A stretch of DNA of 28,473 nucleotides, taken from a virus. The translations under genes and the position numbers were made by a program. The notes under the pieces are model-generated. The model did not search any database. It saw nothing but the letters and a program-made list of their open reading frames with translations, and was not told the DNA's origin. The DNA is taken from IMG/VR virus record IMGVR_UViG_3300025155_000032, positions 1 to 28,473 of that record. One strand, 5' to 3'. Below, one piece after another: positions 3,258-27,219 of the stretch (position 1 is the first letter of the stretch; each line of letters begins with the position of its first letter).

Positions 3258-3664
3258 TGGCGACGGCGAGGGTCAGGCGGCTGGATCGGGACAACGACGC
3301 CACGTTCGGCAAGGGCGCGCGGAACTACGCCAGCGACAGCGAGTCAACCGAGCAGCGGCTGCTGTGCTACCTGCGTGGCATCGGCGGCGAATACTTCCTC
3401 GACACGACGCGGTTCATCCCCTGGTTCCAGGCCGAGGACAGCGACGTCAAGCCGATCATGGGAGCCAACGGGCCGCGCGATCTCGCGTACGCCGAGGCGC
3501 TCATTAAGGCTGGCATTCTTGGGGTCGACGGAATCGCATCTCTAGACTCGTTCTCTGTGAGCTTTGACGCCAACACGCGCCACATGTCCATCTCGGCCGA
3601 GGTGACGGACGACGACGGCAATCCGATCGTGTTGCAGCAGTTCGATCCGCTCGGGGGTGGCTGA
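3257..3664 (+). CDS. Baseplate wedge protein, gp25-like
   Basis: A 135-residue protein between the plug and the baseplate J gene, where gp25/W-type wedge proteins normally lie. It has a gp25-like flow: an N-terminal stretch with conserved YLRGIGGEYFLDTTRFIPWF, then GPRDLAYAEALIKAGILGVDGIASL (about 76-100) and a final beta-hairpin SISAEVTDDDGNPIVL. These proteins help join the wedge to the tail tube and sheath. The open frame extends upstream to 3140, but ATG 3257 overlaps the previous stop (3255-3257) and gives the expected length. The stop overlaps the ATG of the J gene at 3664. Confidence 0.75.
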   Translation: MATARVRRLDRDNDATFGKGARNYASDSESTEQRLLCYLRGIGGEYFLDTTRFIPWFQAEDSDVKPIMGANGPRDLAYAEALIKAGILGVDGIASLDSFSVSFDANTRHMSISAEVTDDDGNPIVLQQFDPLGGG

Positions 3665-4863
3665 TGGCGGGCCCCACCATCGACGGGACCGGCTTCAACC
3701 TCCACAAGTACGGCGGCGAGACCGGGCTGCAGGGCTGGCTCGACGAGCTCATCGACGAGCACAAGGCCACCTACGGCGACGACATCGACGTCAGCCCGGA
3801 GTCTCCCGACGGCGAGTGGCTGTCGAAGGAGGCGCAGGCGCGCAACGACATCGAGCAGATCGCGCTGACGCTCTACAACATGAACGCGCCGGCGGGTGCG
3901 GTGGGCGCGGCGCTGTCGCGGCTGGTGCAGCTCAACGGAATCACGCGCAAGGCGGCGCAGTTCTCGACGGTGGCGATCACGCTGGGCGGCACGCCGACAA
4001 CCGTCATCCCGGCCGGGTCGCTGTTCGACGATCCCGACGATCCCGACCTGCCGCCGTTCGAGACCGCGGCCGAGTACATCATCGGTGGCGGCGGTACGGT
4101 GACCGGTCAGGGCATCTGCACCGAGGCGGGCCCGTTCAACGTCAGCTCGGGGAGGCTGGACCGCATCCTCGACGTGATCTCGGGCTGGGACACCGTCACC
4201 AACACCGCGGCGGCCACGCCGGGGCGACTGGTCGAGGAGGATCCGATCCTGCGCGTGCGGCGCGCGGAGTCGGTGGCGATGCCGTCGCAGAGCATGCTCG
4301 ACGGGCTCTACGCCGCGCTGGCGAACCTCGATGGCGTCGATGACGTCGTCGTGTACGAGAACCCGACCGGCTCTTACAACGCCAAGGGCGACCCGCCGCA
4401 CAGCATCCACGTCATCATCGACGGCGGTCTCGCGGCCGACATCGCCAACGCCATCTGGGTCAAGGCGTCGATGGGATGCACAAAGGTCGGCAATGTCAGC
4501 GATACGGTGACGGATTCGCAGGGTAACCCGCAGGAGATGCGGTGGGACGTGCCGGTTGACCTGGACGTCTACATCACGGTCGCGCTGAGCCGAACGCCGA
4601 ACCCATTCGAGGAGGCGTCGATCAAGGCTGCCCTGCTCGCCTTCGGGAACGAGACGTCGCGCATCGGCAAGGACGTGCCGTGGGGTGATCTGTTCTCTCC
4701 GGTCAACGACCTGGAGATCACGGGAGGGCCTGGTCAGCCGAGCATTCTGTCGATCAAAGTCGGGGACGCGCCGGGGCCGACGCTGCAGCAGGATCTAAGC
4801 GTCGAATTCAACGAGCGCCCGCGCTACGACGATGCCAACATCGATGTCGTGGTCGGACCATGA
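3664..4863 (+). CDS. Baseplate J/gp47-family protein
   Basis: A 399-residue wedge protein. It has the family's typical sequence course: an N-terminal LNGITRKAAQFSTVAITLGG followed by TPTTVIPAGSLFDD, the beta-strand region just before the 'eyiiggggt' segment, then GRLVEEDPILRVRRAESVAM (about residues 188-207), which is the conserved E-x-D-x-x-x-R-x-R motif of J proteins. After that come LANLDGVDDVVVYEN and a C-terminal region with SRIGKDVPWGDLFSPV. J forms the wedge arms that close the baseplate ring and carry the fibres. It overlaps its upstream neighbour at 3664 and its downstream neighbour at 4860-4863 (ATGA). Confidence 0.88.
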   Translation: MAGPTIDGTGFNLHKYGGETGLQGWLDELIDEHKATYGDDIDVSPESPDGEWLSKEAQARNDIEQIALTLYNMNAPAGAVGAALSRLVQLNGITRKAAQFSTVAITLGGTPTTVIPAGSLFDDPDDPDLPPFETAAEYIIGGGGTVTGQGICTEAGPFNVSSGRLDRILDVISGWDTVTNTAAATPGRLVEEDPILRVRRAESVAMPSQSMLDGLYAALANLDGVDDVVVYENPTGSYNAKGDPPHSIHVIIDGGLAADIANAIWVKASMGCTKVGNVSDTVTDSQGNPQEMRWDVPVDLDVYITVALSRTPNPFEEASIKAALLAFGNETSRIGKDVPWGDLFSPVNDLEITGGPGQPSILSIKVGDAPGPTLQQDLSVEFNERPRYDDANIDVVVGP

Positions 4864-5516
4864 GCGTCGATCCGGAATCCGGCGAGACGATCCCGGAAGG
4901 CGCGAGCGTGCCGTTCCCCGATCCCGGCGAGACCGCGCAGGACTACGACGCGCAGGCGCAAGCCGAGGTGCTGACGCAGTACCAGGAATCGCCGAAGCTC
5001 AAAGCGACGATCACGGCGCTGATGGCGGGCTGGCAGGCGATCGAGGACTGCCTGGTGCAGATTCCCGGCCTGCGCGATCCGGCGACGGCGACTGACGTCA
5101 ACCTGGATCGCGTCGGCGAGCTCGTCGGCCAGTCGCGCGTCCTCACGACCGGGACCGAGCTGTCCGACGCCGAGTACCGCACGTTCATCGCGCTGCGCAT
5201 CCTGCGCAACAAGGCGATTGGGTCGGGGCCGGAGTTCGTTGCCGCGCTGGAAGCCATCCTCGACCCGATTGCGTTCCGGTTCGTCGACCTCGGCGGCATG
5301 GCGGTGCTCATCGAGATCGCGACCGGCGCGCCGCCGTCCGATGACCAGATTGCGGCGCTCGATCACGGTCCGATCCCGCGCGCGATGGCCGTGGGCGTTG
5401 GACGGACTTGGTACGACCCCGAGGACGTGTTCGGGTTCGAAGAGGACGACGACGCGATCGGGTTCGGCGAGGTTGGAGACCCGGGCTTCGGAGGGGGCCT
5501 TGCCGAAATCTTCTAG
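4860..5516 (+). CDS. DUF2612-like tail/baseplate protein
   Basis: A 218-residue protein directly after baseplate J, in the position of the tail protein I/gp48-like component. The central part fits DUF2612-type tail proteins: a short helix-rich start (LTQYQESPKLKATITALMAG), DVNLDRVGELVGQSR about residues 78-92, then LSDAEYRTFIALRILRNKAI about 101-120 and EFVAALEAILD. The C-terminal end is acidic and Gly-rich (FGFEEDDDAIGFGEVGDPGF). It probably caps the wedge and helps attach fibres. The ATGA overlap with the J gene implies coupling. Its last 17 bases also hold the TTG start of the following endonuclease. Confidence 0.75.
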   Translation: MSVDPESGETIPEGASVPFPDPGETAQDYDAQAQAEVLTQYQESPKLKATITALMAGWQAIEDCLVQIPGLRDPATATDVNLDRVGELVGQSRVLTTGTELSDAEYRTFIALRILRNKAIGSGPEFVAALEAILDPIAFRFVDLGGMAVLIEIATGAPPSDDQIAALDHGPIPRAMAVGVGRTWYDPEDVFGFEEDDDAIGFGEVGDPGFGGGLAEIF

Positions 5517-6135
5517 GCAGGTGCAGCGGGGGCCGTGTGCGGTACGCGGCTGTCAGTTGCCGATCAGGGCGCGCGGTCTGTGCTGGCCGTGCTACCAGCG
5601 CCTTCGCTATCACGGTCGGTTGGACACGAAGTGGCGACCGGCCGTTGAGAATCCGGCCATTCCGGGAACGATGCTGATCCCGATCTCCAAGGGGATGAGC
5701 GCGATCGTGGACGCGGCGGATGCCGAGATCGTCAGCAAATGGAGGTGGTCGGCTCGCCCGGCAGGGCGGACTGTGTATGCGCAGCGTATCGATCACGGGA
5801 GAAAAATCGACCTGCACCGATTCCTCTGGCGTCACTGGGGCATGCCGGAAACGCCCGAGATCGACCATGAGAACAACGACGGGCTCGACTGCCGGCGCGA
5901 GAATCTGCGACCCGCTACCCACATGCAGAACATGTGGAACCAACGCATATCGATTGACAACACGAGTGGCGTCAAGGGCGTCTGCTTCGACAAGGCGCGA
6001 GGGAAGTGGTCTGCCGACATTCGAGCCGGGGAGACGCGCCTACGCCTGGGTCGATTCGATTCTATCGAAGACGCTGCCGCAGCGTATCGCGCGGCCGCTG
6101 AACGACTGCATGGCGAGTTCGCCAGGGCTGCATAG
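5500..6135 (+). CDS. HNH endonuclease with AP2 DNA-binding domain (homing type)
   Basis: A 211-residue protein. Residues 13-31 carry two Cys pairs (C13, C18, C28, C31) that could bind zinc. An HNH_3-type core follows, with H106 (DLHRFLWRHWG), the EIDHENNDGLDCRRENLRP segment (D122-H123, N135) and HMQN at 141-144. An AP2 domain spans about 155-205 (SGVKGVCFDKARGKWSADIR, then LGRFDSIEDAAAAYRAAA). This is the usual make-up of free-standing phage homing endonucleases. The open frame runs back to 5218, but only TTG 5500 has a good SD (GGAGGGGG at about 5490) and keeps just the recognisable protein; GTG 5521 is the alternative. It is probably a mobile gene inserted between tail genes. Confidence 0.8.
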   Translation: MPKSSRQVQRGPCAVRGCQLPIRARGLCWPCYQRLRYHGRLDTKWRPAVENPAIPGTMLIPISKGMSAIVDAADAEIVSKWRWSARPAGRTVYAQRIDHGRKIDLHRFLWRHWGMPETPEIDHENNDGLDCRRENLRPATHMQNMWNQRISIDNTSGVKGVCFDKARGKWSADIRAGETRLRLGRFDSIEDAAAAYRAAAERLHGEFARAA

Positions 6136-6147
6136 GAGGCACGACGA

Positions 6148-7347
6148 ATGGCACGCGCAACGAAACCGCCAGTACGAGACGCATGGGGCAGCTCGGCATC
6201 CGGCAGCCCAGACATCGTCGAGGCGCCTTACGTCGGCACCGGCTGGCCGGCGTCGAGCATGGATCCGGTCAAGCCGCCTCGCGGGTATTTCAACTTCGAG
6301 CAGAACCGACTCGATAACGGATTGATCTACGTGCTCCAGCACGGCATCCCAGACTGGGATCTGAACGAGGACAGCTACGACGTCGGCGATTTCCTCCGCA
6401 GCACGGACAATAGGTTTTATCAACTCGTCGGGACGGCAACGCCAGGGCAAGCCCCGCACACCGACCCAACGAACTGGCATTTGTGCCTGAGACTACCGCG
6501 ACCGATGACGGGCGAGACGGCGGCCGACGCGACCGCGGCTTGGCGAAACGCATGGGGCTTCCGTGTCACCGGCAAGGACCACTACGGCTTCGACGCGGGG
6601 CAGCTTCTCGACTTTCGCGAGACATGGATGGGCGGCGGTTCGGTAGTCCAGCAGACCGCGACTGGGACCGGTCTGTTGCTGGGCGACTGGAACTACCGCA
6701 TCAACAATGGCGGCGGGACCGTCGGCGGCATCTTCGGGAACGGCCCGTGGGGAACGGACCTGACGACGCACCCTTGGGGGCCGATCCTCGGTGTCAACGC
6801 GTTCGGGCAGAGCACCGATGCGATTTCCGTCGTCGAGACAGCGAAGCCGATCATCAAGGTGTCGCAGGCGTCGCTGGTGTTCGAGGTGAACTTCAGCATC
6901 AACGGCGCGAGCGGGCCGCAGAGCAACACCGGCTTGGCGGTTGGCCTTGGCGATGGAACGCTTGTCACCAACGGTACGACCGGGCCCACGCTGCCCACTG
7001 CCCACGGCGCATGGATAGAGCGGGCGCCAGGCAACGCAAATTGGCTGGCCGTTAGTAAGCCGAATGGTGGGGCGGCAGTCGGATCAAATAGCGGCGTCGC
7101 GGTCGCCAGGGATGCGCCGCACCGATACCGTTGCTACGTGATTGGAACGTCCGACTCCGCCGACAGCAACGCCCGTGTGATTCACATGATCGACGGCGTC
7201 GTCGTCGCGAACGATCTGGTCTCGCTTTCGAACCAGACGCTGTCCCCGTTTGTACGCGCGGCCGCGAATCAGGGCGAGGTGTGTCTGATCAATGTCGGAC
7301 CGATGCGCGTCCAGGCGAGGCTGGCGGCGTTCGACACGCTGCTTTAG
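6148..7347 (+). CDS. Phage tail fibre/receptor-binding protein
   Basis: A 399-residue protein. The N-terminal region has PPRGYFNFEQNRLDNGLIYV (about 43-62), then YDVGDFLRSTDNRFYQLVGT and a TDPTNWH ending. This 'GDFVR..DG.FYQ....P' unit, in which a Trp closes the motif, is common at the N-terminus of phage tail fibres and attaches them to the baseplate. The rest is beta-rich and Gly/Asn-rich without clear enzyme motifs, consistent with a receptor-binding tip. The SD is GGAGG at about 6136-6140. The last codon overlaps the stop of the convergent lipoprotein gene by 4 bases. There is no signal peptide, unlike the fibre-like gene at 9713. Confidence 0.7.
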   Translation: MARATKPPVRDAWGSSASGSPDIVEAPYVGTGWPASSMDPVKPPRGYFNFEQNRLDNGLIYVLQHGIPDWDLNEDSYDVGDFLRSTDNRFYQLVGTATPGQAPHTDPTNWHLCLRLPRPMTGETAADATAAWRNAWGFRVTGKDHYGFDAGQLLDFRETWMGGGSVVQQTATGTGLLLGDWNYRINNGGGTVGGIFGNGPWGTDLTTHPWGPILGVNAFGQSTDAISVVETAKPIIKVSQASLVFEVNFSINGASGPQSNTGLAVGLGDGTLVTNGTTGPTLPTAHGAWIERAPGNANWLAVSKPNGGAAVGSNSGVAVARDAPHRYRCYVIGTSDSADSNARVIHMIDGVVVANDLVSLSNQTLSPFVRAAANQGEVCLINVGPMRVQARLAAFDTLL

Positions 7348-8318
7348 TTGCACGTCGAGCAGGAAAGAACGCAGAGGCCCCTGTCTGCGGCGGCCTGGCT
7401 GCCAGTGCCCTTGTGGTCGGGGAACCAGCACTCGGAGGCGACATCGCAGTCGAAGCAGAGGTAGCCGTCGCGTGATGTGATGACCCCTGCAGGTTGATAG
7501 CAGGGCGATCGATTTGGCGAGAAGCCGCAGTTCGGAGCGCCGCTCCCGCTCCCGCCGGCGCCAGCCGATCCTGTCGCATTACCTGCGCCGGTAGTATTCC
7601 CCGTCCCTGTGGTGCCCCCGGTCCCTGCCCCGGTCGTATTCCCAGCGCCGCCAGCGCCGCTCGCGCTCATGCAAACCCCGTTCATGCACGTTCCGTTGCA
7701 CGGTCGACTACACCCTCCGCAGTGCGTGTTGCTGGCCTGGATGTCGACGCACTGGTTGTTGCAGATCATCTGACCTGTGGACGGGCAACCGGCCGGCGTG
7801 CAGACACCGTTCGAACAGGTGCCGTTGCAGGGCCTGCCGCAGCCACCGCAGTGGGCGATGTTCGTCTTCGTGTCGATGCAGGCGCTGTTGCAGTACATCT
7901 GCCCCGGCACGGCGCAGCCGCACGCGCCGTTGATGCATGTCGATCCGCCGGAGCACGGCCCGCAACCGCCGGCCCCACCGCCACCCTGGCCCGTGACGTT
8001 GCCGGTGCCGGTCGTTCCGCCGCGCCCGGCGACAGCCGATCCGCCGCCGCCCGCGTTGCCCCCGGCGCCGCCGCCCGCCAGGCGCACGCAGATGTTGGAC
8101 GCGCACGTCAGGCCAGCGTCGCAAGTCGAGTTGCCGTAGCAACTGCAGGTCTCGGCGCCCGCGGGGCAGGCGCTGGCGCCGCCGGATCCGCCGGCCCCCA
8201 TCGCTCCGGCCTCGCCGCTAGCGCCCGCGCCGCCGTCGCCTAGCATCGCGGTTTCGACATCGCCGCAGCCGATCGCCGCGAGCACAACCAGCGCCACCGT
8301 TCTCATCGCGTTCTTCAT
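7344..8318 (-). CDS. Gly/Cys-rich lipoprotein, myxobacterial style (moron candidate)
   Basis: A 324-residue predicted surface lipoprotein. It begins MKNAMRTVALVVLAAIGCGD, a signal peptide ending in a lipobox-like AIGC, so C18 is the likely lipid-bearing Cys. Long Gly/Ala/Thr tracts follow (about 27-49, 81-117, 219-258) that look like flexible surface linkers. Between them are Cys-rich modules, including a tandem 43-residue repeat with CGGCGRPCNGTC-type motifs, similar to Stig1-like modules in Myxococcota lipoproteins. It runs opposite to the tail genes and looks like host cargo rather than a virion part. The SD (AGGAGA) sits about 8 bases upstream of the ATG. Function is unknown; adhesion or surface masking would fit. 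Confidence 0.75.
   Translation of the reverse strand: MKNAMRTVALVVLAAIGCGDVETAMLGDGGAGASGEAGAMGAGGSGGASACPAGAETCSCYGNSTCDAGLTCASNICVRLAGGGAGGNAGGGGSAVAGRGGTTGTGNVTGQGGGGAGGCGPCSGGSTCINGACGCAVPGQMYCNSACIDTKTNIAHCGGCGRPCNGTCSNGVCTPAGCPSTGQMICNNQCVDIQASNTHCGGCSRPCNGTCMNGVCMSASGAGGAGNTTGAGTGGTTGTGNTTGAGNATGSAGAGGSGSGAPNCGFSPNRSPCYQPAGVITSRDGYLCFDCDVASECWFPDHKGTGSQAAADRGLCVLSCSTCN
7662..7919 (-). repeat. Tandem 43-codon Cys-module repeat inside the lipoprotein gene
   Basis: Residues 134-176 and 177-219 of the lipoprotein are two adjacent diverged copies. Both contain PGQMYCN/TGQMICN, then C-[IV]-D, then H-C-G-G-C-x-R-P-C-N-G-T-C and N-G-V-C at matching positions. The copies correspond to 7791-7919 and 7662-7790. 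A further partial module may precede them around residues 118-133. Confidence 0.7.
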
Positions 8319-8485
8319 GTGACCCGTCTCCTGGTCTTGTCTCCCGTTGTTTCCCCTTGCGGGGGCGGGGCGGGGCCGGGAGACCGACCCACTCGTTGGG
8401 AGCTACCCGACGAGCTGCCCTGCACCACCAGGGTGCGGCGACCTGGCGGTCTCAGTCAACGGCTGGGAGGGCGTTCAGGTGGGAG

Positions 8486-9064
8486 CTACTGCCAAGTGGC
8501 CGTAACCACACAGCCCTTTAGCACCGCCGAGGTGAGGACGCGTCCGGCGCCCCTGCACTCGACCTCGACGCGCTGGCGTTTCTTGAGCTGAGCGGCCCTG
8601 GGCGCTTCCGCCTTGGTCAACTCGGCGTGCACATCGGAAAGCATCTGGCCGCTGCTGAGCATCAGCACGGTGTCACCCATGAAGTCCTTGTCGATCGAGC
8701 TGATCACGCCCTCGACCAGCAGCAGCTTGCCCTTGTATTTCTCGTCGGCAGCCACCTCGTTGGCGTCGTAGTCGCGGTGGAGGCGCGTGGCCTTTACGGG
8801 AATGGGGTCTTCCTTTTGCGGGGCCGACTCAACCGCTACCGCGGCCCTCGGTTCGGATCCAGCCCGAGCGCGCTCGAACGCGGCGTCGTCACCTGCTATC
8901 CCCGAGATGCACTTCCACATCATGCCGAGCGAGACGACCAGACCTGCGACGTAGGCCCATCGTGGAGTCGGTGTCGCCGTAGGCTTCGGACGCCCGCAAC
9001 CCGGACAGGCCGCTGCGGTCGTGTCCACCTGCCGCGCGCACCCAAGACACGCCTTCAACGCCAT
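8486..9064 (-). CDS. Zinc-ribbon, single-TM protein with tRNA_anti-like OB domain
   Basis: A 192-residue predicted inner-membrane protein. Residues 6-23 form a short zinc ribbon (C6, C9, C20, C23). A transmembrane helix spans about 36-57 (WAYVAGLVVSLGMMW). Residues about 98-190 match the tRNA_anti-like OB-fold: DYDANEVAADEKYKGKLLLV, then EGVISSIDKD, then C-terminal RVEVECRGAGRVL. This family is found in bacterial membrane proteins and lipoproteins of unknown role; despite its name it need not bind tRNA. It precedes the lipoprotein gene on the same strand, with a 167-bp gap. A sigma70-like promoter lies immediately upstream, and no SD is seen. It looks host-derived rather than structural. Confidence 0.7.
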   Translation of the reverse strand: MALKACLGCARQVDTTAAACPGCGRPKPTATPTPRWAYVAGLVVSLGMMWKCISGIAGDDAAFERARAGSEPRAAVAVESAPQKEDPIPVKATRLHRDYDANEVAADEKYKGKLLLVEGVISSIDKDFMGDTVLMLSSGQMLSDVHAELTKAEAPRAAQLKKRQRVEVECRGAGRVLTSAVLKGCVVTATWQ

Positions 9065-9069
9065 GCCGC

Positions 9070-9101
9070 CTAGCGTGCCCCGGGAGCGCCGCCAGCGTCA
9101 A
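9070..9101 (-). promoter_or_regulatory. Sigma70-like promoter for the OB-domain gene, possibly leaderless
   Basis: On the minus strand TTGACG lies at 9101-9096, followed by an 18-bp spacer and CACGCT. The TTG is 37 nt upstream of the ATG at 9064, so transcription would start at or next to the start codon. No SD is visible in between. A late-type motif drives the opposite strand from the same short intergenic region. Confidence 0.5.
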
Positions 9102-9130
9102 CGGGGACCACCTGTTCAGCCCGCCCGTTC

Positions 9131-9167
9131 TTGGGGTCCGCCCCCGCCCGGCCCGAACATGGAAGCC
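9131..9167 (+). promoter_or_regulatory. Late-type promoter motif, copy A
   Basis: TTGGGGTCCGCC starts at 9131, 37 nt before the ATG at 9168. It matches the motif found upstream of 13684, 14939 and (minus strand) 18806. A weak GGAA lies 4-7 nt before the ATG, so leaderless initiation is plausible. Confidence 0.55.
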
Positions 9168-9716
9168 ATGCGACACATCATCATCCCCCTGCTGACCGCC
9201 GTTCTCGTTGCCTCCTGTATGACCGCCGAAGCGACGCCACCGCCCGACAAGCCGGTGGCAACGCTCGGCTACGTCGACCTTTCCCGCGTGATGAAGGACA
9301 GCGAGACCGTGAAGAAGGCCGGCGCCGCGCTGCAGGCCGACATCGCGAAATGGAACCAGGAGATTGCCACCGCCGATGCCGAGGCCAAGAAGGCCGAAGC
9401 CGACAAGAAGGCTACCGCTGCCGAAAAGAAGGCCAAGCGCGACGCCGCGACCGCTGTGTTTCAGCGCCATCAGGGCGAGAAGGAACGCCGCATCGCCGAC
9501 GAGGACGCCAAGCTCGCCAGGGCTGTCGATGAAGCTGCGGCCGCGGTGGGCGCCGAGCGCGGTGTCGACGTGCTGCCGGTGCGAGCGCTCTACGCGCGTG
9601 CGGGGCTCGACCTGACAGCCGAGGTCGTCAAGCGCCTCGACGTCCCGCCCGCTGACGGCAAGGTCGCCGCGCTCGAGAAGCGGATCAAAGAGCTGGAAGC
9701 CTCGCGCAAGCCGTGA
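9168..9716 (+). CDS. Skp/OmpH-like periplasmic chaperone lipoprotein
   Basis: A 182-residue protein starting MRHIIIPLLTAVLVASC, a strong lipoprotein signal with lipobox VASC, so C17 should be lipidated. The mature protein resembles OmpH/Skp: VATLGYVDLSRVMKDSETVK (about 29-48), a long charged Lys/Ala/Glu-rich coiled coil (about 55-130), and DLTAEVVKRLD near 155, the conserved closing segment of the family. Skp is a trimeric periplasmic holdase with tentacle-like helices that keeps exported proteins unfolded. Skp itself is soluble, so the lipid anchor is unusual. ATG 9159 is an alternative; 9168 fits the promoter spacing. Its TGA overlaps the GTG of the exported fibre-like gene (GTGA), so the two are probably made together. 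Confidence 0.8.
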   Translation: MRHIIIPLLTAVLVASCMTAEATPPPDKPVATLGYVDLSRVMKDSETVKKAGAALQADIAKWNQEIATADAEAKKAEADKKATAAEKKAKRDAATAVFQRHQGEKERRIADEDAKLARAVDEAAAAVGAERGVDVLPVRALYARAGLDLTAEVVKRLDVPPADGKVAALEKRIKELEASRKP

Positions 9717-12700
9717 CCCGCCTTCGCCTTGTAGCCGCCGCCGCGCTCGTCGTCGCGCTCGCCGCGCCCGCGCGCGCGCAGGAAACCCGGTGGCCCAACG
9801 ACCAATCGGGGCAGAACCTCTACACCGCGAAGAAGCTGCGGGCGCCGACCGTCGGCAATGAGGCGGCCCGCCTGCAGGACATCGCGCCCGGCGCCGGCTA
9901 CCTGAAAGCGCCCGGCGCCAGCACGCTGCCGCTCACCGCGAGCTCGACGGTCCCGCTGGCGGACATCGCGCCGTCGTCGGCCGCCGAGCGGTTCCTGTGC
10001 CGCGGCTCGGCTGCCGGCGGGGGCGTCTGGCAGGAGTGCACCATCGGGACGGGACTCGCGATATCGGGCACGGAGCTGAGCAACACGGGCGGCGCGGGCG
10101 GGGCCGGCGGCGGCGTCACCAACGTGAGCGCGACGCTGCCGCTCACCAGCTCGGGAGGTACGACACCCGATATCGTGTTGCAGTACGACAACGTTTCGCT
10201 GGTGCTCGACGGCGGCGACGCCCTGGTGCGCGAGGCGCTGACCGGTGCCATCACGGCCGGCCAGGGGAGCAACGCCACGGTGTTCGGTGTTCTCGCGGCG
10301 ACGTCGGTGCTGGCGAACGCGACCGGATCATCGGCGGTACCGGCGGCGCTGGCGGCGACGACCAACGGGCAGGCGCTGCGGATGGCGGGCGGCGTGCTCG
10401 GCTGGGGGGAGATTGCGACGGCCGGTCTCGCCAACAACGCCGTCACGAACGCGAAGTTTCGCCAGGGGGCCGGGCTGTCGCTGGTCGGCGTCGCCGGCAA
10501 CTCGACCGCCGACGTCGCCGACATCGCGGCTGGCAGCGATGGTTGCGTCTACCGGCGGTCGGGGACCGTGGTGGGGTGCGGGACGATCGGCCCGCTGTCG
10601 GCGCCAGCACTCGACGCCACGTTCATCACGCAGACGGCAAACGCCAACCTGGCCAATGAGCAGGCGCTGGGCGCGCTCGCGAGCGGGGTCCTCCAGTCGG
10701 TGACGTCCACGGGGGTCGCCTCGACATTCGCTGTCGGCGCGAACCGCATCCCACGCGGCAGCGGCAGCAACGGGCACCTCACCGATTCGGCCGGTCTGAC
10801 GTACGACGGGACCACGCTGCTGTCGAGTAGCTCGACAACGTCGACGGACGTCCTGCACGCGACCACGGCGATCACGAACCACCTCAACCCGACGGCGATC
10901 GTCGAGTCATCCGCGGCGACGGGTCAGGCGGTGCTGCACTTCAGGGCCAACGGTGGCCTGCGCGGTGGCATCCGAGCCGACTACCAGGGGAACCTGAATT
11001 GGTTCGCCCAGGGCGGCGACCACGTGTTTTTCACGGACGGTGACTTTAGCGTCGGGGCGGCGCGCTTTCAGATCCGGGACGCGATCGGCTCCACCGGCGA
11101 GCGCGTTGCCATCATGGCCGGCGGGCTAAAGGTTGGTGACGGCACCGTGGCAGCTCCGGTCGTCGCGATCCCGTTCGCGTCGTACGCGGCGACCTTCCAG
11201 GCGTGGATGGACGCGACTCCCACCAGGGCGGTGGCGTACGGCAACGGTCTGCCTGGCGGCGCACCCAGCGCCGACGCTGTGATCGCAACGTACACCGGGT
11301 CGGCGTGGGTGGACCGTCTGCACATCACCAACGCCGGCGTGGTATCGATCCCCAACCTCACCACGGGACTGGTCAAGGCCACCTCCGGGGCGCTGTCCAT
11401 CGCCGTGGCCGGCACCGACTACGCGGCGGCGGGGAGCTATATCACGTCGCTGACCACGGACGTCGTGGCGACCGGTCCCGGCGCTGCGGCGGCGACCATC
11501 CAGCCGGGCGTCGTGACGCTCGCGAAGATAGTCAACTTCGCCACCGATAGGTTCCCCTGTCGCGACACCGCAGGCACCGGCAGCCTTGAAGTGTGCTCTG
11601 CCGGCGGCGGCCTTGAATGGACGGGCGCCCCCGGGCTTCAAGTCGGCGCGTTTACGGGCGACGCGACGAAGACCGCGGGCGGTACCGCGCTGACGCTCGC
11701 GACCGTGAATAGCAACGTCGGCTCGTTCACGAACGCCAGCATCACCGTCAACGGCAAGGGGCTGATCACGGCGGCCAGCTCTGGCGCGACGCCGGCTCCC
11801 GTCGGCGCCACGTACATCACGCAGACCGCTGACGGGACGCTGACGAACGAGCAGGCGCTGGGCGCGCTGGCGAGCGGGGTTCTGCACAGCGTGACGACCA
11901 CGGGGGTGGCGAGCACGTTCGCGGTCGGCTCGGCGCGCATCCCGTTCGGCAGTGGCAGCAACGGCGCGCTGACCGACAAGGCCGAGTTGAAAACCAACGG
12001 CCAGACCTTCGGCCTGACCGGTATTCAGGAGGTCCAGATCTACACGACCAGCGCGAGCACGAGCGCGCTGACCGGGTTCCGTATGGGGACGGACGCGAGC
12101 TTCACCAACGGGTTCGCATTCTCGATGATGGGCACCGGGTGGAGCGGGGGCGGGCTTGTCGCTAACCAGGCGCTGATCGAGCACAACGGCGGCAACACGC
12201 CGATGGCGTTCTCGAACTTCAACGGCGGCGCAGCGGCCGACATCACTTTCGCGACCGGCGGCTCACGGACTGTGCGTCTGTCCATCGACGGGGCGACCGG
12301 CGTAGTGTCTGTCGCGAACCTGACGAGCTCCCGCCTCGTGTTCGCCGGGGCGGCGGGGGCACTGTCCGGATCGTCGGCGCTGCGCTGGCATGACGACGAC
12401 GCCGACCTGACATTCGAGCTAGCCGTAACCGGCCACCTTCAGGCGTCGACGCTTGCTGGCACTGGCGCCCGCGTCGTGACGGCGAATGCCGGGGGATACC
12501 TGACGGCAACGGCAGGTGATTTCGACGCCACGCTGGCCTACGACGTTGAGGCCGCGGACATCTACGCCGCTGACGCGACCGAGGTGCCCGTCGGTCACAC
12601 GACTGCCGATCCCGGCGTGCTGGGCCACCGATACACCATCGGGACAGCGAAGGGCAGGTGCGAGTTTGGTCTGAACATTCTCGCCAACTCGTTCACGGGC

Positions 12701-12916
12701 GGCGGGTCGTGGACGCTGAAGGTTCAGCGCAACGGGTCGGACACCGGCATCTCGCTGGGGCCGTATTCGAGCGGGACCACGACCGTCGCGTCGACATCGG
12801 GGACCTTCTCTGGTTCTGCCGGCGACGTGTATTCGCTGGTGTGGAACAAGTCCGGCACGGTCAACACGTCCGGCAGCGACTTCCGGTTCACGGGAACGGT
12901 GATCTGCACACGCTGA
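9713..12916 (+). CDS. Large fibre-like protein with Sec signal peptide
   Basis: A 1067-residue protein that reads like a phage tail fibre: long Gly/Ala/Thr/Ser beta-rich repeats, ITVNGKGLITAASSG, NEQALGALASGVL, IPNLTTGLVKATSGALSIA, and a C-terminal FSGSAGDVYSLVWNKSG domain. Unexpectedly it begins MTRLRLVAAAALVVALAA followed by PARA and QE, a textbook Sec signal peptide with cleavage after ARA. No alternative start near the front would remove it. The GTG start overlaps the stop of the Skp-like lipoprotein gene, and a 58-codon module occurs twice. Either it is secreted to the cell surface, or it is a virion fibre that has gained an export signal. No autocleavage chaperone domain is recognised. 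Confidence 0.78.
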   Translation: MTRLRLVAAAALVVALAAPARAQETRWPNDQSGQNLYTAKKLRAPTVGNEAARLQDIAPGAGYLKAPGASTLPLTASSTVPLADIAPSSAAERFLCRGSAAGGGVWQECTIGTGLAISGTELSNTGGAGGAGGGVTNVSATLPLTSSGGTTPDIVLQYDNVSLVLDGGDALVREALTGAITAGQGSNATVFGVLAATSVLANATGSSAVPAALAATTNGQALRMAGGVLGWGEIATAGLANNAVTNAKFRQGAGLSLVGVAGNSTADVADIAAGSDGCVYRRSGTVVGCGTIGPLSAPALDATFITQTANANLANEQALGALASGVLQSVTSTGVASTFAVGANRIPRGSGSNGHLTDSAGLTYDGTTLLSSSSTTSTDVLHATTAITNHLNPTAIVESSAATGQAVLHFRANGGLRGGIRADYQGNLNWFAQGGDHVFFTDGDFSVGAARFQIRDAIGSTGERVAIMAGGLKVGDGTVAAPVVAIPFASYAATFQAWMDATPTRAVAYGNGLPGGAPSADAVIATYTGSAWVDRLHITNAGVVSIPNLTTGLVKATSGALSIAVAGTDYAAAGSYITSLTTDVVATGPGAAAATIQPGVVTLAKIVNFATDRFPCRDTAGTGSLEVCSAGGGLEWTGAPGLQVGAFTGDATKTAGGTALTLATVNSNVGSFTNASITVNGKGLITAASSGATPAPVGATYITQTADGTLTNEQALGALASGVLHSVTTTGVASTFAVGSARIPFGSGSNGALTDKAELKTNGQTFGLTGIQEVQIYTTSASTSALTGFRMGTDASFTNGFAFSMMGTGWSGGGLVANQALIEHNGGNTPMAFSNFNGGAAADITFATGGSRTVRLSIDGATGVVSVANLTSSRLVFAGAAGALSGSSALRWHDDDADLTFELAVTGHLQASTLAGTGARVVTANAGGYLTATAGDFDATLAYDVEAADIYAADATEVPVGHTTADPGVLGHRYTIGTAKGRCEFGLNILANSFTGGGSWTLKVQRNGSDTGISLGPYSSGTTTVASTSGTFSGSAGDVYSLVWNKSGTVNTSGSDFRFTGTVICTR
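10619..11983 (+). repeat. Two 174-bp direct repeats in the fibre-like gene (10619-10792, 11810-11983)
   Basis: Both copies are 58 codons long and in the same frame (residues 303-360 and 700-757). Both encode T[FY]ITQTA...NEQALGALASGVL, then TGVASTFAVG, R-I-P and G-S-G-S-N-G at equal spacing. They differ by many point changes but no length change, so they are an old internal duplication. The sequence between them, 10793-11809, is not part of the repeat. Confidence 0.75.
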
Positions 12917-13647: not shown

Positions 13648-13683
13648 TTGGGGTCGGCACCGGCCGGGGATGATGCTCGAAGC
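13648..13683 (+). promoter_or_regulatory. Late-type promoter motif, copy B
   Basis: CGAAGTTGGGGTCGGC has its TTG at 13648, 36 nt upstream of ATG 13684. GATGCT occupies the -12 to -7 position relative to the ATG. No SD sits at a normal distance; GGGGA ends 14 nt before the start. The upstream TGAGGCGAAG context is nearly the same in copy C. Confidence 0.55.
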
Positions 13684-13914
13684 ATGAAAACGTTCTTCAA
13701 GAAGCTCGGAGCTGCCCTCCTGGAGATGGTGACGTCGAAGAAAGTGATCGCCGCCGTGGCCGGTGCGTTCGTCCAGGCACTGCCGCTCGATCCGGACACG
13801 AAGATCCACATCCAGGGCATCATCGCCGTCTACATCCTCGGCCAGGGCGTGGCTGACGCCGGCAAGGCGAAGGCACAGGTAGAGGCCAGCGCGAAGACCC
13901 CGCCCGCGGTGTAG
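13684..13914 (+). CDS. Small holin-like membrane protein
   Basis: A 76-residue protein starting MKTFFKKLGAALLEMVTSKK. It has two hydrophobic segments: about 21-36 (VIAAVAGAFVQALPL) and about 43-58 (IQGIIAVYILGQGVADAGK). It ends in a Lys/Ala/Pro tail. The 'TSKK..AA..G..V........I.G....Y.LGQG.AD.GK' layout recurs in small phage proteins often annotated as holins. A holin would open the inner membrane to let the M15 endolysin reach the cell wall. Both genes carry the same late motif, which supports the link. The open frame begins upstream at 13648, but ATG 13684 fits the promoter spacing and family length. Confidence 0.6.
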   Translation: MKTFFKKLGAALLEMVTSKKVIAAVAGAFVQALPLDPDTKIHIQGIIAVYILGQGVADAGKAKAQVEASAKTPPAV

Positions 13915-14902: not shown

Positions 14903-14938
14903 TTGGGTCGGCCATCGCCCGGCCCGAGGATCGTGGGC
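14903..14938 (+). promoter_or_regulatory. Late-type promoter motif, copy C
   Basis: CGAAGTTGGGTCGGCC has its TTG at 14903, 36 nt upstream of ATG 14939. GAGGATC lies 7-13 nt before the ATG and could be either a -10-like element or an SD, so this copy cannot by itself settle leaderless initiation. Confidence 0.55.
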
Positions 14939-15718
14939 ATGAGAGACATTCCGGTCGGACTCGACCCAAGCGTTACGGGCCTCGCGGGTCGAGTAGGTGA
15001 GCGCGTCGGCACCGCTGACGGCAATGGCGCGTGGGTGAAGTTCGGCCCGGCCGTGACGGACTGGCGGGCTGACCCGGGCGAGCCGGGCGGCGGGGATCTA
15101 CAGGCGATGCTCGACGACGTCGGTGGCGGCCCCGCGCTGCTGAAGTACGGCGCCGACGGCACGCCAGTAGCAGCGGTTGCCGGTGTCGACTATGACGTTC
15201 CCCGAGCCGTCCACATCACGACGCTTGGCGCGGCCAGCGCCACGCTGACGGTGGCTGGCTTGGACGCCGATGCAGAAGGCGACTACGACGTCGAGGGTGA
15301 GCTGTTCATCGCCGTGAACAACAGTCAGCCGCAGTGGCAACCGAACGGCCTCGCCACGAACCTGATCGGCGCCAGCACAGACTTTGCCGTCGGGGCAGCC
15401 GCCGATACCAATGGCGGTACGCTGTGGATTCTGGCCCGCAACTCCGGGATCATGAATTTCCAGAGCGGCCAGAAGGTGTATTTCAGCGGCCGGTTTCATG
15501 CCCAGACGGGGCGCATCCGGAAGATCGTTCTCGACTGCATCGCAACGGGCGGCGCCAACGCATTCGCCTCCGGGTTCAGCCGCGATCAATTCACGCTCCG
15601 TGGCGTCTGGACAGACACGGCGACCAATCTCACGTCCCTGGCCATCGCCGCCGGCCAGACCGACGGCTTTGGGATCGGCTCGTACATGAAGCTGGTTGCC
15701 CGTGGCGCCCTATCGTAA
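14939..15718 (+). CDS. Phage tail/fibre-type protein
   Basis: A 259-residue protein. It begins MRDIPVGLDPSVTGLAGRVG and then carries a segment typical of fibre shafts (ALLKYGADGTPVAAVAGVDY, about 70-89). The rest, about 95-259, is a beta-rich globular domain with ITTLGAASATLTVAGLDADAEGDYDVEGEL (shown in parts of the family as tip domains), FSGRFHAQTGR and GSYMKLVARG. It is probably a receptor-binding or accessory virion protein. The frame extends to 14903, but the start at 14939 fits the late motif. The glycoside hydrolase gene follows after 9 bases and likely shares the transcript. Confidence 0.65.
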   Translation: MRDIPVGLDPSVTGLAGRVGERVGTADGNGAWVKFGPAVTDWRADPGEPGGGDLQAMLDDVGGGPALLKYGADGTPVAAVAGVDYDVPRAVHITTLGAASATLTVAGLDADAEGDYDVEGELFIAVNNSQPQWQPNGLATNLIGASTDFAVGAAADTNGGTLWILARNSGIMNFQSGQKVYFSGRFHAQTGRIRKIVLDCIATGGANAFASGFSRDQFTLRGVWTDTATNLTSLAIAAGQTDGFGIGSYMKLVARGALS

Positions 15719-15727
15719 GGCGGCGAC

Positions 15728-17683
15728 ATGCCGCGGCCACGCCTCGAACAAACTCTGATCTTCGACAACCGGGTCGCCATCCAGACGGACTGGCAGGGTG
15801 TCTGCGCGAACCATATGTTGTTCGTTGCGTTCCCAGAATTCGGGCTGACACAGGAGCAGAAGGAAGCCGAATGGGATCGCGCGTTGGCGTCCGGCGTGAA
15901 GATCATCCGCACGTTCTACGATGTCTCGTGGGCGTTTGGAGAGACCTATCCGACGGGTCCGGCGAACTGGACGTCTGCCAACATGCTGGCGTTCTACGAA
16001 GGCGTCGCCGCGATGCAGGCGCGCGGCATAAAGGTCGTGATCAATACGGGATGGTCGTTCACGGGGAGCATCTGTCAGCCGTTCGAGGGCGTCGCAAGCA
16101 CGACGATGCCGACTCCGACGCACGAGGCAGCATGGGCAGCATGGATGTCGGAGACGTTCCACCAACTGATCAACGTGCGCGGCTACGACAACGTGATCGG
16201 CGGCGTCCTGTTCACCGAGCCGAATTTCGGAGCCGCCGCAGAGCCGATCCCGGTCGGCTACACGGGACTCGAATACTACGTACACATGGCAGAGGTGCTC
16301 GAGGCCAAGATCGTGGCCGACGATGCCAGCCGCACCCCGATACGCCCGCGCATCGTGCTCGTCGGCGGGCAGGAGCAGAGCGGGAGCGACGCCGATACCT
16401 GGATCGAGTACCTCAAGGCGAATGACACCGTCTGCGACGTGCTCAGCTCTCACAGCTACAACCTCAGCCCGGCGTTTGGGCCGCTGTCGCTATCCGGCAG
16501 CAACGACCTCAGCTACTCGGCGCTGATCGCCCGATTCGCCGCATGGGCGGCAGACGCGAGCCCGCGGCCCCTCTGGGTGGACGAGGGCAACACCGTGGTC
16601 GGAGGCAACACGGACAGCACCGGATATCGCGCGACAGCCGAGGCCGGCGTGAAAATGTGCACGTGGTTCGCGGGCCACATGCAGGCCGGCGTGCGTGCCA
16701 CGCTGCCGTGGACGCTTCAGGATGAGACGCACTGGCCGGCTCCAGCAGATAGCATTACGCAGCAGTTCGGGGTTGCGCGGTCGCTGCACGACACGGACGC
16801 GGTACGACCGGCCTGGTACGCGTTCAGCCTGTTTGCCAGTCTCGTCGGTGGCGGCGGCGTCACGTCGGTGTTCCCGTCGCTGAACGGCACGGCACTGCTG
16901 CACGGCACCGGCGTGCACATCCCGCAGGGTCAGCGCCACGCCACGCACCCGGACGGCGAATACACCTTCGTCGCGATCAATGAGGCGCACACGCCCGTGC
17001 GCACGCAGGTGCGCTTCAAGGAGGTGATCGGGTCGCGGACGTTCTACCGGTATGTCTACAGCGGCGAGCGACCGCCCGATGCCGCCGCCAACCCGGCGTA
17101 TCTGATTCCCTACGACCAGATCTACACGGGCGTGCAGAAGAACCTGCCGCCGAACGTCATACCCGGTCACAGCGTGGTGTTCTACTCGACGATCAACCTG
17201 CAAGCGCCGACCGCGCTCAACCTAGCGCTGACCGCGAAAGCGACTACGGACAGCACTGGCGCGGGGGATTGCACCTTCGTCAACGACGGCAACTTCACGA
17301 ATTGCAGCAGCTCGCCGGGGAACGGCTGGCGCAAGGCGGACAACGACTCGCACTACGTCGAACTGACATGGGAGGACGACGACGGTGACCCCGTCCAGGT
17401 GACAATCGGACGGCTGGAGCTCGCCTTCGTTGCTGGGACACCGGGTGTCGTGTGGCCCGACTACACGACGTCCAGCATGGGCACGGCGTGCGCCGGTTAC
17501 ACCGTTCAGTATTGGAACGGGTCGGCGTTCGTGGACTTCAGCACGCCGGTCAACGTCACCGACAACACGGCCCCCAACCGCACGCACACGTTCACGCCGG
17601 TGAGCACCACGAAGATCCGCCTGACGGTGACCAGCGCGGCGGCGACCGGGCAGGTCAACCAGATCGGCGCCTACGCCTCGTGA
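15728..17683 (+). CDS. Glycoside hydrolase (clan A-like TIM barrel) with C-terminal discoidin-like module
   Basis: A 651-residue protein. Residues 1 to about 400 look like a clan A (beta/alpha)8 hydrolase. VIGGVLFTEPNF places a candidate acid/base Glu at E164, LSSHSYN gives H242, and PLWVDEGNTV gives a candidate nucleophile at E286, with the order and spacing usual in this clan. After a variable beta region, residues about 500-651 (CTFVNDGNFTNCSSS, then FTPVSTTKIRLTVTS) look like an F5/8-type C or carbohydrate-binding module. It has no signal peptide, so it probably rides on the virion as a capsule or exopolysaccharide depolymerase. The SD is AAGGCGG. The exact GH family is not settled. Confidence 0.72.
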   Translation: MPRPRLEQTLIFDNRVAIQTDWQGVCANHMLFVAFPEFGLTQEQKEAEWDRALASGVKIIRTFYDVSWAFGETYPTGPANWTSANMLAFYEGVAAMQARGIKVVINTGWSFTGSICQPFEGVASTTMPTPTHEAAWAAWMSETFHQLINVRGYDNVIGGVLFTEPNFGAAAEPIPVGYTGLEYYVHMAEVLEAKIVADDASRTPIRPRIVLVGGQEQSGSDADTWIEYLKANDTVCDVLSSHSYNLSPAFGPLSLSGSNDLSYSALIARFAAWAADASPRPLWVDEGNTVVGGNTDSTGYRATAEAGVKMCTWFAGHMQAGVRATLPWTLQDETHWPAPADSITQQFGVARSLHDTDAVRPAWYAFSLFASLVGGGGVTSVFPSLNGTALLHGTGVHIPQGQRHATHPDGEYTFVAINEAHTPVRTQVRFKEVIGSRTFYRYVYSGERPPDAAANPAYLIPYDQIYTGVQKNLPPNVIPGHSVVFYSTINLQAPTALNLALTAKATTDSTGAGDCTFVNDGNFTNCSSSPGNGWRKADNDSHYVELTWEDDDGDPVQVTIGRLELAFVAGTPGVVWPDYTTSSMGTACAGYTVQYWNGSAFVDFSTPVNVTDNTAPNRTHTFTPVSTTKIRLTVTSAAATGQVNQIGAYAS

Positions 17684-25761: not shown

Positions 25762-25985
25762 AGCTCGTCGACGTCAAGCTGCCGTCGGGTGCCCGCCTGG
25801 TCGTCACCGGTCTCGGCGCTGAGTACCAGGTTGGCGTGACGCTGCCGAGTGGCAACCGCTTTTCGACCCGGTGCCCGACACCAGACGCCGCAATCGATGC
25901 CGCCGAGAAGTGGCTCCTCGATGTCGGTCAGCCGACTGTCGCCGTGCTGCTGGGCGCGGCAGCGCGAGCGGAGCTCCGTCGATGA
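25758..25985 (+). CDS. Small protein, unknown function
   Basis: A 75-residue protein from GTG 25758, which overlaps the previous stop. MKLVDVKLPSGARLVVTGLG, then EYQVGVTLPSGNRFSTRCPT look beta-rich, followed by a helix (AAIDAAEKWLLDV). Two LPSG[AN]R motifs repeat about 24 residues apart. Family not recognised. Confidence 0.5.
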   Translation: MKLVDVKLPSGARLVVTGLGAEYQVGVTLPSGNRFSTRCPTPDAAIDAAEKWLLDVGQPTVAVLLGAAARAELRR

Positions 25986-26242
25986 CCTGCGTCGTCAACG
26001 TCACCGCGCCCGAGAGCGGCTACCGCCTGCGCGTCGAGGACCACGGCGTCGCGCGCTTCTACGGCTTCCTGCGCTCCCCGCCGACGCCGGAGCACCCCGA
26101 CGGCAAGGTCGTGTGCATCACGCGTTGCCAGAAGACGGCGGCCGATGCGGCAGAGAGCGCAACGAATTTGCTCGTGGCGAACGGGTTAAGCCACGTCGCG
26201 ACGGCGCTGCGCGCGAGCGCGGCAGCAGAGCTTCGACAGTGA
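25982..26242 (+). CDS. Small protein, unknown function
   Basis: An 86-residue protein: MTCVVNVTAPESGYRLRVED, then HGVARFYGFLRSPPTPEHPD and KVVCITRCQKTAADAAESAT. Two Cys (in VVCITRC) and an Ala-rich helical C-terminus. ATG 25982 overlaps the previous stop region by 4 bases. Family not recognised. Confidence 0.5.
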   Translation: MTCVVNVTAPESGYRLRVEDHGVARFYGFLRSPPTPEHPDGKVVCITRCQKTAADAAESATNLLVANGLSHVATALRASAAAELRQ

Positions 26243-26259
26243 ACCAAGGGAGGGAACCC

Positions 26260-27219
26260 ATGACCGCTACCGCGAACCTCGAACCATCGTCCGACCTGAT
26301 CCTCACTGACTATGGCAGCAGGGAGAAGTGGTTGGCCGCGCGCGGCAACAGCATCGGCGCGAGCGAGTCTGCCGCGCTGTTCGGCGTGAGTCCCTGGGAG
26401 ACGCCGGTCTCGCTGTGGGCGAAGAAGACCGATCGCGTACAGGAACCCGAGATCGACGGCGAGTGGCTGACGTGGGGGCTGCTGCTCGAGGAGCCGATCG
26501 CGAAGCGCTACGAGCAGGTGACGGGGCGGACGACGTGGCGTGGCGGTAGCCCTTACTGCATCGCGCGGCATCCGCGTTTCGAGTTCATGACGTCGACGCC
26601 AGACTTCTACGTCACCTTCGCGCCTGACCGCACCGGCAACGGGATGTTGCAGTGCAAGAACACGATGGCGCCCAGGGCGCATGACTGGGACGAGGGCGTG
26701 CCCGACCACATCGTGATCCAGGTGCAGCACGAGATGGCCGTGACCGGGCGTGAGTGGGTGTCGGTCGCGGTGCTCATCGGCGGCAACGAGTTCAAATACT
26801 TCGACGTCGAGCGGAACCAGAACGTCATCGACGAGATCGAGGAGCAGTGCCGCATCTTCTGGGGCTACGTCGAGCGCGACGAGCAGCCGCCCGTCGACGG
26901 GAGTGAGCGCACGCAAGAGGTGATTAAGCGCCTGCACCCGGCGGACAACGGCAATACCATCGAGCTGGACGAGAACGCGATGGATTGGTGGGCAGCGCTC
27001 GAAGCGGCCAAGGCCGCCGAGAAGGTTGCGAAGGACGCAAAGACGGAGGCGGACACCCATCTGCGTGACGCCATCGGCGCGAACACGTTCGCGAAGCTCC
27101 CTGACGGTCGGCTGTTGTCGCTGAAGACCACCCCCAACCCCGGCTACACGAGCGTCGTGAAGCCGTACACGTATCGGACTCTCCGAGAGGTCAAGGCAGC
27201 GAAAGGACGGAAGCGATGA
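26260..27219 (+). CDS. YqaJ-type viral recombinase (phage exonuclease)
   Basis: A 319-residue protein of the lambda-exonuclease-like YqaJ family, which resects double-stranded DNA ends for recombination. The signs are GNSIGASESAALFGVSPWET (about 29-48), EWLTWGLLLEEPI with conserved Glu (E77/E78), FMTSTPDF with D115, GMLQCKN with Q131 and K133 in the (E/Q)-x-K position, and PDHIVIQVQHEMAVTG (about 148-163), the family's Q-x-Q-H-x-x-x-x-T-G motif. A helical stalk (about 245-275) and C-terminal domain follow. Gln in place of Glu in the catalytic pair occurs in other phage members. SD GGGAGGG. Its stop overlaps the next ATG (27216), typical of an exonuclease-annealing pair. Confidence 0.88.
   Translation: MTATANLEPSSDLILTDYGSREKWLAARGNSIGASESAALFGVSPWETPVSLWAKKTDRVQEPEIDGEWLTWGLLLEEPIAKRYEQVTGRTTWRGGSPYCIARHPRFEFMTSTPDFYVTFAPDRTGNGMLQCKNTMAPRAHDWDEGVPDHIVIQVQHEMAVTGREWVSVAVLIGGNEFKYFDVERNQNVIDEIEEQCRIFWGYVERDEQPPVDGSERTQEVIKRLHPADNGNTIELDENAMDWWAALEAAKAAEKVAKDAKTEADTHLRDAIGANTFAKLPDGRLLSLKTTPNPGYTSVVKPYTYRTLREVKAAKGRKR

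Follow-up and report, generated by a model that had tools for sequence, protein, structure and literature searches.

Why would a phage encode a fibre that carries a signal for export from the cytoplasm? Phage fibres are usually regarded as components of the virion, produced in the cytoplasm, and it is there that tailed phages, including the fibres of myoviruses, assemble. The question is raised by the IMG/VR virus record IMGVR_UViG_3300025155_000032, a 28.5-kb stretch (28,473 nucleotides, called the window below) of a virus known from metagenomes only. An earlier note on this DNA had described an OmpH/Skp-like chaperone with a lipobox, whose gene overlaps by GTGA that of a 1067-residue fibre-like protein with a signal peptide. 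Both descriptions held up on closer analysis, and we consider it very probable that the two genes form a phage-encoded export module. The features concerned are the following (window coordinates).

9159..9716, + strand: OmpH/Skp-family lipoprotein of 185 residues (alternative start at the second ATG, 9168), identified by PF03938, profile and AlphaFold model
9204..9218, + strand: lipobox L-V-A-S-C (LVAS/C) of this lipoprotein, read from the sequence, with the Cys aligned in 4/4 homologues
9713..9716, + strand: GTGA stop/start overlap of the lipoprotein and fibre genes, read from the sequence
9713..12916, + strand: predicted Sec-exported tail-fibre-like protein of 1067 residues with a GTG start, from translation and repeat homology
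9713..9778, + strand: predicted signal peptide of the fibre, N-terminus VTRLRLVAAAALVVALAAPARA/QETRW, from the sequence and a rule-based prediction

The lipoprotein of the window belongs to the Skp/OmpH family. It matched Pfam OmpH (PF03938) with 51.9 bits (cut-off 32.4; E 1.2e-13), and its counterparts in two related phage contigs, L006 and L008, also scored above the cut-off (44.3 and 63.6 bits, respectively). A profile made from four members of its clade picked up solved OmpH/Skp chains. The structure prediction that the earlier note had proposed was made from a four-row alignment and gave a monomer model (AlphaFold, AF2) with a predicted local distance difference test score (pLDDT) of 80. 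The model contains a strand (residues 36-38) and two helices (49-81 and 87-134) arranged as the Skp helical hairpin, i.e., a long hairpin on a small beta body, and its top 8 Foldseek matches in the PDB all belonged to the Skp family (probability 1.00; including 1u2m, 1sg2, 4kqt, and 8gl8). As expected for the family, export to the periplasm is predicted, a signal peptide and a lipobox being present in 4/4 clade members. Thus, the protein resembles Skp in profile, fold, and export, but differs from the soluble E. coli Skp in being lipid-anchored, encoded by a phage, and genetically tied to one client. The residue at position +2 after the lipobox Cys is Met, not Asp, and the protein is therefore probably anchored to the outer membrane, if the E. 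coli Lol rule applies. A structure search of the viral models in BFVD gave no Skp match at E 0.001 or better, and tblastn of two of the Skp homologues against INPHARED (50,697 phage records) gave zero matches. The earlier note knew of no described system of this make-up; INPHARED, BFVD, and the literature searched likewise yielded neither a phage Skp nor a similar pair.

The second protein has the repeats of a tail fibre. These are homologous to those of the tail fibre of contig L011 (E 9e-11), which lacks a signal peptide, and to those of the exported fibre of L008; thus, like classical tail fibres, it shares its repeats with fibres encoded after baseplate genes. Unlike them, it does not appear destined for cytoplasmic assembly, since a signal peptide was predicted in 4/4 clade members. 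Signal peptides were scored with our own rule-based script instead of SignalP; applied to 118 baseplate and tail homologues, this script made no strong prediction except for a holin-like protein, twice. No further start codon occurs in the open reading frame ahead of codon 138, so that the choice of a later start cannot remove the signal peptide. No PHROG family matched the window fibre, and no Pfam match to a YadA-type C-terminal anchor (type Vc autotransporters) was found in any clade fibre, the fibre of contig L022 being scanned against Pfam as its L016 copy, which ends at residue 1090, and at full length only against PHROGs. As far as can be judged from these predictions, export of the fibre through Sec is well supported, and we propose that its gene arose from that of an ordinary tail fibre through acquisition of a signal peptide. 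The GTGA overlap likely couples translation of the fibre to that of the lipoprotein.

Further evidence for the module came from the conservation of the pair. Relatives were gathered through baseplate genes; searches of IMG/VR with the Skp protein alone or the fibre alone found no relatives, and a search with a neighbouring baseplate gene found no clade members beyond those already known. The four carriers (the window, L006, L008, and L022) are IMG/VR phages of one contractile-tailed clade, on contigs from different metagenomes, and in 4/4 the Skp lipoprotein and a signal-peptide fibre are encoded side by side. L006 and L008 have the same order as the window, the OmpH lipoprotein sharing the same 4-base overlap with a signal-peptide fibre, which is 1512 or 1714 residues long. 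The order is swapped in L022, where the lipoprotein lies about 12 bases downstream of the fibre (1656 residues, with signal peptide). This last lipoprotein is diverged; it scored 47 bits with the clade profile, whereas none of 500 shuffles exceeded 2 bits, and gave an independent match to PF03938 under the cut-off (record G003; 16.9 bits, E 1.7e-4). Among the 22 whole virus records scanned, PF03938 was present in exactly the four pair carriers, and none was found in the remaining 18 related records. L011 and L013, which are sister phages, lack OmpH, and the fibre at the corresponding place has no signal peptide. The chaperone and the signal peptide, being both present in four members and both missing in the two sisters, thus seem to have been gained or lost together within the clade and to have outlasted a change of gene order. 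The earlier note had named relatives lacking both as evidence against its reading; the close relatives have both, and only the two sisters answer to that description. Since four contigs of different metagenomic origin share the pair, chimeric assembly was rejected.

The same comparisons bear on the idea that the lipoprotein is itself the effector, lowering receptor density by trapping outer-membrane proteins of the host in the periplasm, with the fibre in a secondary role. Unfolded outer-membrane proteins are the known clients of Skp, and Skp scaffolds can acquire new roles, as SkpA did in the type 9 secretion system (PMC10994853). However, the lipoprotein gene always adjoins a signal-peptide fibre, overlapping it in 3/4 members, and is missing where the fibre has no signal peptide. 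We find this explanation very unlikely.

The cysteines of the fibres also pointed to export. Those of the window fibre fall into pairs (96-109, 278-289, 616-628, and 983-1065). An even number of cysteines was found in 10/12 signal-peptide fibres, versus 15/45 cysteine-containing fibres without signal peptide (Fisher p=0.0028); the 12 exported fibres scored comprise this clade and at least 6 distant contigs, and the related sequences among them are not fully independent. In the exported fibres, 70/96 cysteines lay at most 20 residues from another one, while 33 were expected by chance. When the window fibre was aligned with the L011 fibre, the repeat FPCRDTAGTGSLEVC stood opposite LLGRDTAGTGDVETI, and the Cys at each end of the repeat is specific to the exported form. 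Such pairing would mark an oxidising compartment and hence supports export. The cysteine parity and the signal peptides in all four members agree with the earlier suggestion of Sec export, and the retention of the pair through the order swap, with its absence from the sisters, favours the linked chaperone that the note had invoked.

The position of the pair was then considered. The left part of the window carries contractile-tail baseplate genes (phrog_817, the phrog_196 hub, the phrog_120 and phrog_6 wedge, and phrog_587), and the pair sits between tail-fibre genes and lysis genes:

3664..5516, + strand: baseplate wedge (phrog_6) and structural gene of phrog_587, listed for context; served to find the relatives
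6148..7347, + strand: ordinary tail fibre of the virion, without signal peptide (phrog_30316, 3.3e-8)
13648..13914, + strand: holin-like gene at the start of the lysis region, soon after the pair (phrog_9987, 4e-5)

This location within the tail module, together with the repeats held in common with the signal-peptide-free fibres at the same position in L011 and L013, could mean that the fibre is a virion part after all, which is exported, disulphide-bonded, and joined to virions during or after lysis, or whose signal peptide is skipped. Such a route is at odds with cytoplasmic assembly of tailed phages, and a dedicated periplasmic chaperone with a lipid anchor would be pointless if the signal were skipped; the window fibre, moreover, offers no earlier alternative start than codon 138. 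The virion also has its own fibre without signal peptide, which supports a role outside the virion. We therefore judge a virion fibre distinctly unlikely.

The proximity of the holin-like gene to a coiled-coil lipoprotein, which gave a weak Rz-like PHROG match (E 0.015), is compatible with an aid to lysis, in which the lipoprotein and the periplasmic fibre would disrupt the outer membrane together with holin and endolysin, much as spanins do. The fold is that of Skp rather than a spanin, and for this reason spanin identity was rejected; coiled coils can be expected to give such a weak match by chance, and a fibre of 1067-1714 residues is unnecessary for lysis. This makes a lysis function most improbable. 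PADLOC gave chance coiled-coil matches only.

We propose the following sequence of events for the export module. It would be expressed late, as its placement between tail-fibre and lysis genes makes probable, and the overlap would ensure that lipoprotein and fibre are produced together. Sec would carry the fibre into the periplasm, where the Cys pairs could form disulphides that lock the repeats. The Skp-family lipoprotein, lipid-anchored and probably trimeric like other Skp proteins, would take up the long fibre chains from Sec, keep these aggregation-prone, beta-rich chains soluble until trimerisation or envelope crossing, and help three of them to join. The mature fibre would then work on or in the envelope of the infected cell, not in the virion. 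In view of its tail-fibre parentage, binding to host surface structures would be its most economical function; if it bound those recognised by the phage's own fibres, it would hide them from particles attempting superinfection and keep progeny from sticking to lysed cells. By analogy, masking by an exported fibre appears physically feasible, since addition of the purified receptor-binding protein of phage T5 protects cells from infection by that phage (PMC9586334). Receptor masking is for us the likeliest purpose of the fibre, though a tentative choice, doubtful rather than probable; the account as a whole, in which an exported non-virion fibre with its Skp lipoprotein acts at the host envelope to mask receptors, seems to us about evenly poised between right and wrong.

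Two genes on the opposite strand, between the ordinary fibre and the pair, are relevant to this account:

7344..8318, - strand: cysteine-rich lipoprotein (lipobox AIG/C) containing STIG1-like repeats
8486..9064, - strand: zinc-ribbon, transmembrane, and tRNA_anti-like (OB-type) protein (phrog_8545, 9.6e-21; PF12869, 6.9e-17)

The STIG1-repeat lipoprotein, with its Gly-rich linkers, was found in every clade member whose sequence extends to this point (L006 6601-7530, L008 13621-14577, L022 13134-14036, and L007 5442-5846, all on the - strand) and absent from every other locus. Its linkers and its STIG1-type Cys repeats presumably recall myxobacterial lipoproteins, a resemblance that may point to the host. 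The second gene immediately precedes the pair and is transcribed away from it. Its PHROG family, phrog_8545, is labelled 'superinfection exclusion Sie-like', and a counterpart was found in L022 (13979-14518, - strand; 1.2e-23), while L006 and L008 lack one. Its occurrence in two members is suggestive only as a hint of receptor masking. With these two proteins beside the pair, the stretch between the tail fibre and the lysis genes looks, from its predicted products, like an envelope-modifying cassette.

Exported cysteine-rich partner lipoproteins and the architecture of the fibre would equally fit an adhesin, displayed or secreted to alter how the host, whether infected or lysogenic, adheres to surfaces, prey, or kin; in streptococci, the phage tail proteins PblA and PblB are surface adhesins (PMC4508584). 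However, no tyrosine integrase was found in six records, which leaves a long-term benefit to a lysogen unsupported, and the position beside lysis genes suggests late expression. An adhesin is in our opinion unlikely.

Several observations weigh against the export and masking account. L006 and L008 each have a signal-peptide fibre with an odd Cys count. No outer-membrane anchor, translocator, or usher was found in the fibre, the Pfam scan of the window fibre being empty, and the model of its C-terminal tip, made from one sequence, was poor (pLDDT 44) and not used. The Sie-like label is an annotation only and carries no weight as a test. Superinfection-exclusion genes are usually early, while the pair looks late. 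Finally, eight phage contigs have signal-peptide fibres without Skp, indicating that Skp is not needed in general.

These eight distant contigs (L021, L047, L054, L077, L085, L087, L094, and L096) carry signal-peptide fibres with no adjacent OmpH. In L021, which belongs to an alphaproteobacterial metagenome-assembled genome (MAG), two such fibres are in tandem, and the single OmpH of the MAG is on another contig. In L077, L085, L087, L094, and L096, the exported fibre lies, as in the window, between fibres without signal peptide and a lysis-like cassette, the latter called by eye. L085 has three signal-peptide fibre-like genes in a row (7539-10250), the last of which ends in a lectin-type Laminin_G_3 domain. 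A signal-peptide fibre of 1254 residues is also encoded by MW202444 (INPHARED). L111 was a further case of signal-peptide fibre-like genes, and several of the genes in these nine contigs have repeats such as CSSSTFLRGDGSC where cytosolic fibres have SSSTFWRGDGTW. No prophage of the clade was found among species genomes; a draw of 299 genomes from the phylum of the MAG yielded distant baseplate relatives only, at loci too short to reach the downstream genes.

Judging from these predictions, signal-peptide fibres are possibly a widespread unreported class. As they extend beyond the pair, the Skp lipoprotein would be one lineage's addition to a more general trick. Put broadly, tailed phages may repeatedly have derived, from a tail-fibre gene, an envelope fibre that is exported by Sec, stapled by disulphides, kept out of the virion, and loaded late to control adsorption, one lineage having captured a lipid-anchored Skp; that this is an undescribed class has, in our estimate, somewhat less than an even chance of being right.

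By the comparisons made, the fibre and the pair are outside the autotransporter, Llp/Cor, and classical tail-fibre families. Among the closest known systems is SadBA of enterobacteria, in which SadB, an operon-coupled trimeric inner-membrane lipoprotein, improves folding and surface display of the exported trimeric autotransporter adhesin SadA (PMC3953254). There, too, a small lipoprotein gene lies directly upstream of a long exported fibre gene in one operon. However, SadBA is on the bacterial chromosome, SadB has a MATH-like beta fold and Asp at +2 (inner membrane), and SadA has an outer-membrane translocator domain; the window lipoprotein has the Skp fold, no Asp at +2, and a phage as carrier, and no translocator was found in its fibre. 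The superinfection-exclusion lipoproteins T5 Llp and Cor also come from phages, act at the envelope, and are encoded close to the receptor-binding protein, the T5 gene adjoining that of the latter (PMC9586334). Llp is, however, a very small lipoprotein that binds and jams the receptor, whereas the present one is a 185-residue chaperone of Skp fold accompanied by an exported full-length fibre. PblA and PblB, tail proteins of streptococcal prophage SM1, also arrive at the surface of the bacterium (PMC4508584 and references therein), but in a Gram-positive host and without a chaperone. PblB of S. mitis is released by lysis-linked permeabilisation and has no signal peptide according to SMART, while one is predicted for pneumococcal PblB (PMC4508584). 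SkpA of the Bacteroidota type 9 translocon is a Skp homologue dedicated to the secretion route of surface adhesins (PMC10994853); it is a structural part of a large translocon, whereas the window has no translocon genes. The present pair thus resembles a known arrangement, that of an exported fibre with its own chaperone in the periplasm, but is found where it was not expected, in a phage. A conserved phage module exporting a fibre with its own chaperone would bring an envelope stage into fibre biology, offer phages a new means of controlling adsorption or host adhesion, and provide, in compact natural form, a means of displaying long trimeric beta fibres. With two genes in one operon, the hypothesis is directly testable through its predictions for localisation, lipobox and Cys mutants, and adsorption.

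Other genes of the window were noted in passing. Between the phrog_587 gene and the tail fibre, an HNH and AP2 endonuclease-like gene (5218-6135, + strand) encodes a product 84% identical to its L008 counterpart, compared with about 70% for the adjoining genes; L006, L007, and L016 yielded no homologue, and the gene is likely a mobile homing gene. Downstream of RuvC and a fibre-like gene (14903-15718), a 651-residue protein (15728-17683, + strand), which looked by eye like a TIM-barrel glycosidase and had no match in Pfam and PHROG scans, is a possible tailspike depolymerase. Near the right end (25849-28412, + strand), a RecE-like exonuclease is followed by a phrog_3657 protein, which may be its annealing partner.

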